DNA of 64,000 nucleotides from Methylomusa anaerophila (GTDB taxonomy: Bacteria; Bacillota; Negativicutes; Sporomusales; Sporomusaceae). Shown here in pieces: positions 2,752 through 15,630 of this stretch. Position numbers and translations under genes: made by a program. The number at the start of each line of letters is the position of its first letter. The first letter of the stretch is position 1. Below the pieces are notes generated by a model. That model did no database searches. It saw only the letters and a program-made list of their open reading frames with translations, and was not told the DNA's origin. The stretch covers positions 1,722,501-1,786,500 of the forward strand of contig NZ_AP018449.1 in assembly GCF_003966895.1 (NCBI RefSeq), in the 5' to 3' direction.

Positions 2752-4050
2752 TTGTATTGGAATCAACCGGCAGAGACCATGGAAAGGGAACAGCTGCGTT
2801 CTTTGCAGGCAGGCAGGCTAAAGGAACTGGTGGACCGGATATACCGGCAGCAGCCTTTTTACCGCTCCAAAATGCAGGAACAAGGTTTGTTACCACAAGA
2901 CATCAATAGTTTAGAAGATATAGCCAAACTTCCCTTTACTGTTAAACAGGATATGCGGGATAATTATCCTTACGGTCTCTTTGCCGTCGCACCAACCGAG
3001 ATTATTCGCATTCACGCATCAAGCGGAACTACCGGCCGGCCGACGGTAGTAGGCTACACCAAGCGGGACATTGGTATTTGGTCCGAAGTAATGGCCCGTG
3101 CTCTTACCGGTGTGGGCGTCACCAAGCAATCATTCGTACAAATTGCTTACGGCTACGGTCTGTTTACAGGGGGGCTGGGCGTACATTACGGTGCGGAACT
3201 TATTGGCGCCTCGGTCATCCCGATCTCTAGCGGCAATACTGCCAGACAAATCATGTTGATGAAAGATTTTGGCACCACCACTATCGCCTGTACTCCCTCA
3301 TATGCTTTGTACATTGCGGAAACTATGCGGGAAATGGAGATTGATCCGCGCAAGACTTCGCTGAAAGTAGGAGTATTTGGGGCGGAGCCCTGGTCGGAAC
3401 GTATGCGGGGCGAGATCGAGGAACAGCTGGGTATAAAGGCTGTTGACATCTATGGATTGAGCGAAATCATTGGCCCGGGGGTTGCCTGCGAATGTCTGGC
3501 GCAGAATGGACTGCATATTAATGAAGACCACTTTTATCCGGAAATTATCAATCCGGTAACAGGCGATGTACTGCCTGACGGTGAAAAAGGGGAATTGGTG
3601 CTGACAACCCTTACCAAAGATGGAATGCCCATGATACGTTACCGTACGCGTGATCTTACCATGCTGGAGCGGGAGGTCTGCTCATGCGGCAGAACGCTTG
3701 TCCGCATGAGCAAGGTTCTGGGCCGGAGCGACGATATGCTGATCATCAGAGGGGTAAATGTATTTCCGTCTCAGGTGGAAACTGTTCTCTTAAGTATTGG
3801 AGAGACTTCGCCTCATTATCAGCTAATTGTCGACCGCAAGGATAACTTAGATTGTCTGACTGTTCTGGTAGAGGTGACTGACGATTTATTTTCTGATGAA
3901 GTAAAAAGATTAGAAGCCTTAGAACATAAAATTAAATCGGAATTAGCCAGCGCTTTAAGTGTCTCTGCTACTGTACGGCTGGTTGGCTCCAAAACTATCG
4001 AGCGCAGCGAAGGAAAGGCCAAGCGGGTAATTGATAATCGGAAGCTATAA
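2752..4050 (+). CDS. paaK: Phenylacetate-CoA ligase family acyl-CoA synthetase
   Basis: This 432-residue adenylate-forming ligase activates an arylacetate or related carboxylate to its CoA thioester with ATP. The AMP-binding P-loop '[14 protein letters not shown]' (about residue 90) and the C-terminal lid with '[19 protein letters not shown]' are intact, and the length is normal for PaaK. Start is TTG at 2752 with 'gaggggga' upstream. It is co-transcribed with the tandem-ACT gene 21 bp downstream. In anaerobes such ligases supply acyl-CoA for ferredoxin-dependent reductive carboxylation to amino acids. Control by a probable ppGpp riboswitch fits amino acid salvage under starvation, although no ior gene lies nearby. 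The actual substrate is not known. Confidence 0.9.
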
Positions 4051-4071
4051 CGAGTATAGGGGGAATCTAAG

Positions 4072-4521
4072 ATGATCATTCAACAGATGTCCGTATTTGT
4101 TGAGAATCAGCCTGGTAAGATGGCCGAAGTCCTAGGAACCTTAAAAAGCAATGGCGTAAATATTCGGGCGCTGGCACTTGCTGACACTGCCGATTTTGGT
4201 ATTCTCAGAATTATTGTAAATGAACCGGAAAGGGTTAGAAATATATTGCGGGAATCCGGTTTTACCGTTCGTTTGACGCCGGTGTTAACCATGATTGTGA
4301 GTGATAACCCCGGTGGACTATATGAACTGATTAACCTGTTAAGCAACGCCGGGGTCAGCATTGAATATATGTATGCTTTTGCTGCATATGGTTCGCAGGA
4401 TGCCAGAGTAGTACTGAAAGTGGATAACTTAGTGCTGGCGGAAAGGCTGATATCCGGTGAAGATAAGCAGGATCCGGCGGTTGTTGAGAGGGATGGTACA
4501 GTTCCCGGCTATTATTGGTAG
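4072..4521 (+). CDS. Tandem ACT-domain amino-acid-binding protein
   Basis: A 149-residue protein made of two ACT modules (about residues 3-70 and 71-140; first strand 'QMSVFVENQPGKMAEVLGTL', second 'TMIVSDNPGGLYELINLL'). It has no catalytic domain. ACT pairs of this type commonly follow paaK in anaerobes and are presumed to sense an amino acid. It lies in the paaK transcript, 21 bp after its stop, with 'agggggaatctaag' before the ATG. A role as allosteric partner or sensor for the ligase is inference. Confidence 0.85.
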   Translation: MIIQQMSVFVENQPGKMAEVLGTLKSNGVNIRALALADTADFGILRIIVNEPERVRNILRESGFTVRLTPVLTMIVSDNPGGLYELINLLSNAGVSIEYMYAFAAYGSQDARVVLKVDNLVLAERLISGEDKQDPAVVERDGTVPGYYW

Positions 4522-4563: not shown

Positions 4564-4593
4564 TTGACAAGGAACTAACGTGCTGGCATAATG
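4564..4593 (+). promoter_or_regulatory. Promoter of the ilv leader
   Basis: TTGACA (4564-4569) and CATAAT (4588-4593) with 18-bp spacing lie just upstream of the second riboswitch. Confidence 0.7.
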
Positions 4594-4621
4594 GATACAA
4601 AGTGTTACATGATTGTAAGAA

Positions 4622-4722
4622 AGCGCATCTAGGGTTCCGCTGATTAACAGGCCTGGTCCGAGCGATGCATGGCACGGCGTGGTGCCCCGTGTTACACCGT
4701 GAGTAAAAAAGACTCTGCGGCA
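4622..4722 (+). promoter_or_regulatory. ykkC-family riboswitch (probable ppGpp, 2a) of the ilv operon
   Basis: Core motifs 'tctagggttccg' (4628), 'cctggtccgagcg' (4652) and 'acaccgtgagtaaaaaa' (4694) match the copy before paaK. The 3' conserved segment runs into 'actctg' (4712), which opens the terminator. P1-type pairing of 'agggt' with 'actct' competes with that hairpin. Placement before ilv genes and in tandem with a T-box is a reported arrangement for ppGpp riboswitches. Confidence 0.85.
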
Positions 4723-4766
4723 AGTTTCTTACTGAATGCTTGTGAGAAATTTTCCCAGAGTTTTCT
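4712..4766 (+). terminator. First ilv leader terminator (riboswitch platform)
   Basis: 'actctg' (4712-4717) pairs with 'cagagt' (4756-4761). An inner stem joins 'aagtttctta' with 'tgagaaattt'. 'tttctt' follows. Readthrough should need the ligand-bound aptamer. Confidence 0.8.
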
Positions 4767-4788
4767 TATATCTTCAACTTAAATTTGG

Positions 4789-4916
4789 CGACTGATTAGA
4801 AATGTTCAGATGCTAGGCGTGACGAGGATTGCGCAGTGCCGCGTACTGGGTTTGTACGCAAGCAAGCAACCGCAGAAACAACGACGCAGATGGGCGTTTG
4901 CGTTTATAAGCAGTCG
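4789..4916 (-). repeat. MITE-like repeat, copy A, inserted inside the ilv leader
   Basis: This 128-bp element has near-perfect terminal inverted repeats ('cgactgatta' / 'taagcagtcg'). Its reverse complement matches the copies at 6772, 10434 and 15421, for example 'catctgcgtcgttg', 'cagtacgc' and 'cgcctagcatct'. It lies exactly between the riboswitch terminator and the T-box stem I, lengthening the leader without disturbing either RNA. Confidence 0.75.
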
Positions 4917-5209
4917 TATAATGAAACAAGTAATGATTGGGTTAAAGCGCTTCAGCTAAAAGCCGCTTTCAGAGATGCCGGTGGTTGGTGTAAACCGGTG
5001 CGGTGCTGACGCCGTTACGTCGCCCATGAACTCTTTTGCTGAAACGTATAGTGCGAGTTGTCATTATACATTAGGTAAAAGCGTTAGCCGGACGTTACCC
5101 GGCAGATACCCAAGATGAGTCTTGGGTGTTGCAACGAGTAAAAGTAGGGTGGTACCGCGGAATTGCCGCCCCTACCGGCGGATACGTCTGCCGGTAGGGG
5201 CGGTTTTTT
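4917..5209 (+). promoter_or_regulatory. T-box leader of the ilv-leu operon, probably leucine-specific
   Basis: Stem I features 'cagagatgccgg' and 'ggtgtaaaccgg' precede a specifier-type bulge 'gaactctt' (about 5030). Its codon reads best as CTC, leucine. The T-box sequence 'agggtggtaccgcgg' is at 5146-5160, directly before the terminator (5166-5203). Uncharged tRNA is expected to stabilise the antiterminator and allow ilvN transcription. The specifier reading is inference from position. Confidence 0.88.
5166..5209 (+). terminator. T-box terminator before ilvN
   Basis: Perfect 14-bp arms 'ccgcccctaccggc' (5166-5179) and 'gccggtaggggcgg' (5190-5203) are followed by six T. The 5' arm starts right after the T-box sequence. 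Confidence 0.9.
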
Positions 5210-5241: not shown

Positions 5242-6748
<1,507 letters not shown>

Positions 6749-6771
6749 GTAACTATTTGGCTTAAAGTAGG

Positions 6772-6892
6772 GAACTGCTTATAAACCGTCATCTGCGTCG
6801 TTGCTTCTGCGATCCTCACTCCAGCGTACATCCCAGTACGCTTGCGTTCCGGTCCTCGTCGCGCCTAGCATCTAACGATTTCTAAGCAGTTC
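6772..6892 (+). repeat. MITE-like repeat, copy B, between ilvC and leuA
   Basis: 121 bp with perfect 10-bp terminal inverted repeats 'gaactgctta' / 'taagcagttc'. The flanks 'ttaaagtagg' and 'gaggca' resemble those of copies C and B', so the true ends may lie slightly further out. It sits within the presumed ilv-leu transcript. Confidence 0.8.
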
Positions 6893-6940
6893 GAGGCAGT
6901 AGATAAATTAACGGATACAAGATTACTTGTTGTTAAAGTG

Positions 6941-12806: not shown

Positions 12807-14075
12807 ATGAACGAATGCAGCAATAAACGGGCAGCCATGGTTACGTTGGCTGCTGTTACTCTTGGCCTTTTGGTGAGCTATCCATTCAAAGAAACATTTA
12901 TCGGCGGCGTTGTCGTCAGTGGCTGCAGTGCGGCGATGATTGGCGGCATTGCTGATTGGTTTGCCGTTACCGCTTTGTTCCGCCGTCCGCTGGGAATACC
13001 CTTTCGTACGGCTTTGATTCCCAACAACCGGGAACGAATTTTTGAAGCCATTGTTACAATGGTGGAGAAAGAACTGTTGTCAATGGATAATATCAAATTA
13101 ACTTTAAAGCAAATCAGTTTGACAGAACTTGCACTGCACTATGGAAATGCTGTTGAAGCCAGGGAGCGTCTACAATTAATTCTCGGACATGTGATTGAAG
13201 ATTTTCTCTTCGCTATTCGCGTGGATGAAGTACATAAAACATTGCTTCATTTTTTAAAGGACAATGCCGACGAAATTAAAGTGGCTCCTCTGGTTGGGCA
13301 GGCTGTGGAATGGTCTGTGCGTGAGGGGTTTGCCGATAGTTTTCTCGATCTTTTGGTAAGGGAATTTGAGCAGATGGCACGGCAGGAAGAGACCGTTCAA
13401 TTGATTGCCAAAATCTACCGGCGAGCAATGGCGGCTTACTCTTCCCGGCAGAACCAGCGGAAAGTGGCAAGCTGGATACTTGAAAACCTTTTACATGTTG
13501 CCCCCGAGACGGTAGCGGCGGTTATCCAGGGAAAATTACTTGCCTATTTGGATCAACTTCACGATCCTGAGCAGTGTGAACGGCGCAAAATGAAGGTGTG
13601 GCTGCTGAAATTAGCTAAAGATTTAAAAACCGATTCCGAGTTTCAGCGGCAGGCCGAAAAGTTAAAAAAGAAGATATTATTCCAGCCAGAGCTGGAAAAT
13701 TACCTGACCGCCTTATTTTGTGAAATGCGCACTGTACTGCTCGAAAATTCGGCCAATATGCGCAGCTGGACAAACAAGATCATGGAACAGTTTGGACAGT
13801 TTTGGTCCGGGGTTGCCTGTGATTCAAGCCAGCGGGAAGAAATTGACAATATGCTAAACAGCGGCCTAAGTAAATGGATTGACGCTCATCATACGGAAAT
13901 CGGCAGCATGGTCGCGGGATATTTGCGAAGATGGAGCAGTGATGAACTGGTATGCTACATTGAAACAAGAGTGGGTAATGACCTGCAAATGATCCGTATC
14001 AGCGGGTCAGTGGTAGGCGGTGTTGCCGGGATGCTTCTGTTTTTGCTTACATCCTGGCTGGGGGTGGCGCGATGA
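12807..14075 (+). CDS. DUF445 membrane-anchored protein, first of pair
   Basis: This 422-residue protein has an N-terminal hydrophobic segment, the DUF445 hallmark 'GGIADWFAVTALFRRPLGIP' at about residue 45, a long helical middle region and a C-terminal hydrophobic anchor ('VVGGVAGMLLFLLTSW'). Upstream TTG or ATG codons at 12735 and 12753 exist but lack ribosome sites, so ATG 12807 is preferred without certainty. It overlaps the second DUF445 gene by 4 nt and the two are surely co-transcribed. The molecular function of the family is not established. Confidence 0.82.
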   Translation: MNECSNKRAAMVTLAAVTLGLLVSYPFKETFIGGVVVSGCSAAMIGGIADWFAVTALFRRPLGIPFRTALIPNNRERIFEAIVTMVEKELLSMDNIKLTLKQISLTELALHYGNAVEARERLQLILGHVIEDFLFAIRVDEVHKTLLHFLKDNADEIKVAPLVGQAVEWSVREGFADSFLDLLVREFEQMARQEETVQLIAKIYRRAMAAYSSRQNQRKVASWILENLLHVAPETVAAVIQGKLLAYLDQLHDPEQCERRKMKVWLLKLAKDLKTDSEFQRQAEKLKKKILFQPELENYLTALFCEMRTVLLENSANMRSWTNKIMEQFGQFWSGVACDSSQREEIDNMLNSGLSKWIDAHHTEIGSMVAGYLRRWSSDELVCYIETRVGNDLQMIRISGSVVGGVAGMLLFLLTSWLGVAR

Positions 14076-15415
14076 ACAAGCAGAAAGCCAACATCATTCT
14101 TGCCCTCGCTTTCCTAGTGTTTAGTCTGGCTGTGGCCGTTAAGTATTATTATCCGGCCGGCTTTTGGGCCAGGCTGCTATTAACCGTAGCGGAAGCAAGT
14201 CTGGTTGGCGGTATTGCCGATTGGTTTGCAGTGACGGCATTATTTCGTAAACCTTTGGGCTTTCCGTATCACACCGCCCTCATTCCGCGTAACCGGCAGC
14301 GAATTATAGCGGCGTTGGCTAACGCTGTGGAGCGGGACTTTTTGAGCAAGGAATCCATAAAAGCGCGGTTAGAGAAAGCAAGAGTGATGGAATGGATTAT
14401 CAAGCAGGCTGACAGCAGAAGGACCGGCGTACGCCTTCGCCGGTTCATCTCTCAGATCGTTGAGGAGGCAATTGCTACCATCAATCCGGCGGTTGTCGGC
14501 AAATATTTGAATCAGGCGATAAAAAACGCTCTAAAATCGCAGCCAATCGCTACTTATGCGGCTGCCGGCGCCCGTTGGGCACAGGGGGAAGACAAAGACA
14601 GATTGTTGTATGAAGCCATTTTGGATGAATTGATTGAGTTGGTACGGGATTCTAAAACACGGGAAGCTATCTTTTTCTATCTTGAAGGAATTAAACAGAA
14701 GGAAGCAAACAAAACGTGGCTCGCCAGCGTATTAACCGGGGTGATGGAACAAACGGACAGTTTGAATCTGGTAGATGCCGCCATTGCTCTGCAGAATGAG
14801 ATAATCATAGCATTAGCGGAAATGAGAGTGGAGCAGAATCACCCGATTTGGCTTTGGTTTCGTGAAGAATTGACCGTTGTGGTGGAAAATCTGGAAACAA
14901 ACGAAAATTGGATTGCGGCAACTGACTTATGGAAGGACGGCGTTTTAAACCGTATTGATCTCTCCGAGCCTTTGGCGGCGGCAGCTGCCAGCGCCCTTCA
15001 TTCGCTAGGCGGCAGTCAAACCGCGGCGCCGGCAGGTTCAGTCAGCCGGGGTGACTCGCGGCAGTTCATAGTTGATTCAATCATGACTGAAATAGAAAAG
15101 TACTGGGAAAAGTTTAAAAACAACCGGAAAATGATGAACCAGGTAGAAACCTACATCCGGGAACTGATTCTACAGATCGTGGATAACGAGCATCATTTAA
15201 TTGGTGAAGCTGTGCAAACGGCGCTAAACAGGCTGACGGATGAGGACTTAAACTACTTTATTGAAGATAAAGCCGGCGATGATTTGCAATGGATACGCAT
15301 CAATGGCGTGGTAGTCGGCGCTGTAGTCGGGCTATTTCTCACCCTATTTTTGCATTTTATTTATGATCCGTACTTAGTGCCAACAATACGTCAATTGGTT
15401 GAGATTCGCCTATAA
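14072..15415 (+). CDS. DUF445 membrane-anchored protein, second of pair
   Basis: A 447-residue paralogue of the preceding gene with the same plan: N-terminal membrane helix, 'GGIADWFAVTALFRKPLGFP', helical body, and C-terminal anchor 'VVVGAVVGLFLTLFLHF'. Both copies repeat 'AGDDLQWIRINGVVVG'-type ends. The ATG overlaps the upstream stop (ATGA). The pair probably acts as a hetero-oligomer at the membrane. Function unknown. Confidence 0.85.
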   Translation: MNKQKANIILALAFLVFSLAVAVKYYYPAGFWARLLLTVAEASLVGGIADWFAVTALFRKPLGFPYHTALIPRNRQRIIAALANAVERDFLSKESIKARLEKARVMEWIIKQADSRRTGVRLRRFISQIVEEAIATINPAVVGKYLNQAIKNALKSQPIATYAAAGARWAQGEDKDRLLYEAILDELIELVRDSKTREAIFFYLEGIKQKEANKTWLASVLTGVMEQTDSLNLVDAAIALQNEIIIALAEMRVEQNHPIWLWFREELTVVVENLETNENWIAATDLWKDGVLNRIDLSEPLAAAAASALHSLGGSQTAAPAGSVSRGDSRQFIVDSIMTEIEKYWEKFKNNRKMMNQVETYIRELILQIVDNEHHLIGEAVQTALNRLTDEDLNYFIEDKAGDDLQWIRINGVVVGAVVGLFLTLFLHFIYDPYLVPTIRQLVEIRL

Positions 15416-15420
15416 GTGGG

Positions 15421-15540
15421 GAACTGCTTATAAGCCGCCATCTGCGTCGTTGCTCCTGTGGTCCTCACTACAGCGTACAACCAGTACGCTTCCGTTCCGG
15501 TCCTCGTCGCGCCTAGCATCTGACGACTTCTAAGCAGTTC
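15421..15540 (+). repeat. MITE-like repeat, copy D
   Basis: 120 bp with perfect 10-bp ends 'gaactgctta' / 'taagcagttc', very similar to copy B throughout ('catctgcgtcgttgctcctg', 'cgcgcctagcatctgacga'). It begins 5 bp after the DUF445 stop. Confidence 0.8.
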
Positions 15541-15630
15541 GTGGCTTTTGATAGGTTGGCCAATTATAAGGAAGAGGTTGACGTAAAAGCAATATGGCAA
15601 CACACATCTGCAGAAGCGGAAGCAAAAAAT

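Follow-up and report, generated by a model that had tools for sequence, protein, structure and literature searches.

A dispersed hairpin repeat between a probable ppGpp-type riboswitch and a valine-reading T-box in the ilvN leader of Methylomusa anaerophila

The ilvN leader and its parts

The DNA examined here (the window) is a 64,000 nt stretch of the Methylomusa anaerophila genome (contig NZ_AP018449.1, positions 1,722,501 to 1,786,500); positions given without a locus name refer to it. It includes ilvN (5242–5766, + strand), identified by translation and homologues as encoding the acetolactate synthase small subunit, with ilvC next. Upstream of ilvN is a leader (4564–5209, + strand) with, in order, a promoter, a ykkC subtype-2 aptamer, a terminator, a dispersed repeat, a T-box, and a second terminator. 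In all, it spans from the extended -10 promoter (4564–4592; TTGACA-17-CATAAT, with TGG before the hexamer), which was found by promoter scan and is kept in relatives' leaders, as far as the start codon (5242) of ilvN, the first gene under its presumed control.

A restricted Rfam scan at lowered threshold matched exactly two families in the leader, both at full length: RF00442, the Rfam Guanidine-I model (4618–4721, 52.5 bits, E = 2e-8, gathering score 63), and the T-box model RF00230 (4924–5176, 84.6 bits, E = 9e-19, gathering score 93). Both score below gathering, so a default-threshold scan reports neither switch. The order of the two matches, with the terminator scan and folding results below, agrees with the first-pass annotation of the region, which described two RNA switches in series, each with its own terminator.

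Including helix P0, the first aptamer occupies 4615–4732. P0 pairs 4615–4622 with 4725–4732 (GTAAGAAA/TTTCTTAC); both strands are conserved in relatives, with the 3' strand shortened in one of them (L046). The 3' strand also contributes to the inner helix of terminator 1 (4709–4769), the layout expected of an ON switch, so ligand binding and termination should be mutually exclusive. A simple terminator scan misses terminator 1; its helices pair with probability 0.96–0.99, and they are present and aligned in the relatives. The T-box has Stem I, an antiterminator with the T-box sequence, and a terminator. The T-box match also takes in the Stem II region and the antiterminator-bulge UGGU (5150–5153), complementary to the tRNA 3'-end ACCA. 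Terminator 2 (5165–5204), followed by a T run, was found by the terminator scan and pairs with probability 1.0. The segment between terminator 1 and the T-box has no Rfam match; it holds the repeat (136 nt, 4788–4923, + strand), which scores 103 bits with a covariance model built for it and ends at the base immediately preceding the T-box match.

Rfam matches the first aptamer only to the Guanidine-I model and reports no family specific to ppGpp or PRPP, so the family name does not amount to a ligand call. In subtype 2 a pyrimidine replaces an A, and position 96 is G in PRPP aptamers and non-G in ppGpp aptamers (PMC6031431). The window aptamer reads GAGCG where the guanidine-I consensus has GAGAG, with C replacing the guanidine-contacting A; at the PRPP position, aligned by eye, it has U and no G (CCGUGAGUAAAA). 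An internal control is provided by the PRPP-type ykkC aptamer that precedes purE in this genome (L084:1501–1624), which reads CCGAAGGGAUAAAA, the PRPP pattern. On these markers the first aptamer is probably of subtype 2a, the ppGpp type. The first-pass annotation had favored ppGpp over guanidine and PRPP, and the marker nucleotides likewise lead to neither of the latter. At the purE locus, a copy of the repeat also separates purE from the purC-like gene after it (L084:2323–2451).

The specifier of the T-box was read as the triplet before the purine preceding the CCC strand of Stem I, a rule by which the serS T-box of the same genome (L016) reads UCC (Ser). In the window it reads GUC (Val; 5019–5021), which the first-pass annotation had missed. 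Ten relatives of the same family, most of them Sporomusa, read CUC (Leu), while the two leaders that come from other families (L046, L048) share GUC. The published ppGpp/T-box tandem carries a leucine T-box, so the window leader, with GUC and not CUC, would be a specificity variant.

Two other features lie nearby. At 2 kb upstream from the ilv leader, a second ykkC subtype-2 aptamer, with its own terminator-like hairpin (2575–2673, + strand), precedes genes for a phenylacetate-CoA ligase and an ACT-domain protein; two other genomes (G003, G004) likewise carry a pair of ykkC aptamers separated by ~2 kb at the corresponding place. The 5S rRNA gene is duplicated in its 3' part, together with the terminator following it, downstream of the rRNA operon (~2255–2345, + strand).

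Uninterrupted leaders in relatives

The promoter, ykkC aptamer, terminator 1, T-box, and ilvN follow one another as in the window in all 12 orthologous leaders, none of which has a counterpart of the window's 136-nt repeat. The spacing from ykkC to T-box is 517 nt in the window versus 334–389 nt in 11 of the 12. Among named genomes, it is 370 nt in Sporomusa acidovorans and S. ovata, 380 in S. malonica, and 389 in Lucifera butyrica. In the twelfth, from a Sporomusa-genus MAG (G010, locus L040), it is 473 nt because a different insert, of ~101 nt, sits in the loop of terminator 1; the same spacing is found in MAG CTSoil_078 (L090). The L040 insert is a dispersed repeat of the Sporomusa genus, with many copies at 90–98% identity in several genomes, and is unrelated to the one in the window: the same leader has been entered by two different repeats in two lineages.

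Since all 12 relatives have both switches and lack the repeat, its presence in the window is best described as a lineage-specific insertion; and because it is missing from their leaders, it is not a part of the T-box, a possibility that the first-pass annotation had raised along with the comparison to repeat-free relatives that answers it. The insert lies between the two expression platforms, so the leader has become longer and neither switch has lost a part. As far as sequence can show, both are intact. The earlier description thus holds for the position of the insert, precisely between the switches and adjoining the T-box match, and for the lengthening of the leader with its parts preserved; its label of MITE is not established, and transposition as the route is unproven.

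Folding predictions are consistent with this. Both terminators have the same pairing probabilities with and without the insert, which, together with the preserved sequence, suggests that both devices may still work. At first glance, a long hairpin between two switches might serve as an insulator. In unrestricted folding of the whole leader, however, the real insert makes 42.6 expected pairs with its flanks, as against 34.5 ± 13.6 for shuffled inserts, and the flank pairing kept is 0.65 versus 0.73 ± 0.11. The real insert pairs with the flanks at least as much as shuffled ones do, and insulation is therefore not supported.

The repeat family

A BLASTN search of the 4.78-Mb genome returns at least 40 copies of the repeat, and a covariance model built from 29 of these returns at least 150; the model has matches in 26 of the 31 genomes searched, with about 100 or more in several. 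Besides the leader copy, the model identifies two other strong ones in the window, both on the - strand: one just behind the ilvC stop codon (6765–6893), and one at the stop codon of ORF 14072–15415 (15414–15541). Copies fold as a single long hairpin of ~128 nt; that in the leader carries an extra GCGTTT compared to the others. Its closest relative by BLASTN is a copy at locus L188 (92% over 100 nt).

Covariation within the hairpin is extensive. In the 29-copy alignment, 97.7% of pair cells are standard pairs, and there are 80 double-sided changes as against 15.8 ± 3.7 in shuffles (0/500 reaching the real count) and 13 or fewer in slid versions. For 107 copies from the window's own genome (alignment A3), the figures are 264 and 49.6, in an alignment fitted to the model. 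A compensatory change can be seen even within one orthologous copy, with GAATTGCAGA/TCTGCAATTC in two Sporomusa genomes (G011, G008) versus GAATGGCAGA/TCTGCCATTC in a third (G006). The remaining mismatches suggest a strand: on the model's own strand, G.T outnumbers A.C by 90 to 10 in alignment A2 and by 292 to 62 in A3. RNAalifold favors whichever strand is supplied, but the same bias is strong in the long outer helix too, at 67 to 2, so the strand read here is probably the folding one.

Placement of the copies is not uniform. Judged by simple frame calls made independently of annotation, 59 of the 107 copies (~55%) are entered at the 3' edge by an open frame of 100 codons or more that stops within 20 nt of that edge, versus 9 of 107 at the 5' edge; many have this stop codon inside or adjoining the conserved edge TTTAAG. 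The copies at 6765–6893 and 15414–15541 follow this rule and the leader copy (4788–4923) does not. With some 55% of sampled copies at a stop codon, the leader position is atypical.

Other copies are associated with T-boxes. The T-box at L188 (3792–4208, - strand), which precedes a phenylacetate-CoA ligase gene and whose specifier may read UAC (Tyr), contains a copy in its Stem II loop (3951–4080) and is still scored at full length by Rfam. In the same genome a copy lies between the T-box terminator and serS (L016), and another is 18 nt upstream of a further T-box. Three Sporomusa genomes (G011, G008, G006) have a copy behind a T-box terminator, and a fourth (G007) has an empty site, with ~2 nt where these have 137. 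T-boxes as a hot spot were considered and rejected: 4 of 22 have a copy inside or within ~50 nt, as against ~2–3 expected by chance (a hand estimate), which is not significant. A preference for terminators was also considered; among the 107 copies, 16 terminator-like sites point into a copy and 10 away, too weak a difference to support one.

The family has no Rfam entry and no match in plasmid or phage collections. No description of it, of repeat insertions in tandem leaders, or of a valine-specific tandem interrupted in this way was found in the open-licence literature searched. The insert could conceivably come from an undescribed, class-wide family of mobile hairpins in the Negativicutes, with structure selected strand-specifically, a preference for stop codons, and tolerance in riboswitch leaders. 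Strand-specific selection is what a single-strand DNA or RNA intermediate would entail. This proposal is tentative and on balance doubtful; if it is true, the copies amount to a natural insertion series for testing the modularity of tandem RNA switches. Strong covariation, the lack of an Rfam entry, and a stop-codon preference calling for a mechanism make the family of interest in its own right.

A tandem switch with an insert: proposed operation, alternatives, and known systems

The leader is likely a ppGpp-riboswitch/T-box leader of the known AND type, in a valine form, that in this lineage has gained by insertion a single copy of a hairpin repeat found genome-wide. For ligand binding, AND behavior, and the insert as regulatory ballast, we infer the following sequence. 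Without ppGpp, RNA polymerase would stop at terminator 1; ppGpp would stabilize helix P0, withdrawing a strand from this terminator. The polymerase would next transcribe the repeat and the T-box, stopping by default at terminator 2 unless uncharged tRNA-Val, recognized by the GUC specifier and with its acceptor end at UGGU, stabilized the antiterminator so that terminator 2 could be passed. The repeat would be neutral length between the two expression platforms.

The ppGpp step would be wrong if the first aptamer sensed guanidine or PRPP. Its sole Rfam match is to RF00442, and a 2025 survey of contiguous riboswitches (PMC12452182) files tandems of this kind, found on branched-chain amino acid operons, under T-box/Guanidine-I. 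Judged by the present markers, those survey matches may well be ppGpp aptamers themselves. In the window, the RF00442 score is below gathering, C stands in place of the guanidine-defining A, the PRPP-specific G, which the purE-linked aptamer has, is missing, and the downstream genes are ilvN-ilvC; either of these other ligands is accordingly most improbable.

Other alternatives accept the two switches and question the role of the insert. It might have uncoupled them, if an internal promoter at the junction or cleavage of the hairpin let the T-box act alone, with no AND gate. There is a perfect -10 hexamer, TATAAT (4917–4922), at the right-hand junction, and long hairpins are possible RNase targets; yet no -35 partner passed the promoter scan there, and, set against relatives, no decay is seen in the upstream promoter, the ppGpp aptamer, or terminator 1, so that uncoupling seems unlikely. 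Conversely, the insert may have been recruited to a function in the leader, such as a pause or folding spacer between the switches. Conservation of the hairpin across the repeat family would fit, as would the copies in or beside other T-box leaders, including the one in a Stem II loop, but the relatives manage without the repeat, the hand-estimated chance expectation for copies near T-boxes is close to the number found, and the predicted fold suffers no more from shuffled inserts than from the real one. Recruitment therefore appears very unlikely. The natural variants now available (with the 136-nt insert, with an insert in terminator 1, or uninterrupted) can test the independence of the two switches that the AND-gate model assumes.

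Known mobile elements offer partial parallels to the repeat. Like a MITE, it is a small non-coding dispersed element with inverted repeats at both ends. Its terminal arms differ between copies yet stay complementary within each, no target-site duplication is obvious at the one filled/empty pair compared (in Sporomusa), and no parent transposon or transposase link was found in a search of Y1-type transposases. The relatives' leaders, which are the empty sites for the window copy, are too diverged to show a target duplication. REP and REPIN sequences (PMC3733652) similarly comprise numerous extragenic palindromes, frequently right after stop codons, and RAYT-like genes of the sort that accompany them are present in the genome. 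The repeat, however, is a much longer single hairpin (~128 versus 20–40 nt), with the foot GTAG in only some copies, and an origin by this route was rejected: Y1 transposases exist, but neither a copy nor a similar end lies near the three Y1_Tnp loci.

For the leader itself the parallel is closer. Tandem ppGpp riboswitches and T-boxes with separate expression platforms have been published (PMC6031431, PMC5912903, PMC9481103), as the first-pass annotation had noted. The ppGpp riboswitch/T-box(Leu) tandem of Sherlock et al. (2018), tabulated in PMC9481103, is predicted to be an AND gate, and ppGpp-first is one of the two published orders, with 15 examples (PMC9481103). As in that tandem, the window has a putative subtype-2a ykkC aptamer and a T-box in one branched-chain amino acid leader, with separate terminators. 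It differs in the specifier, GUC (Val) in place of CUC (Leu), which widens the known arrangement, and in the 136-nt dispersed repeat between the two devices.
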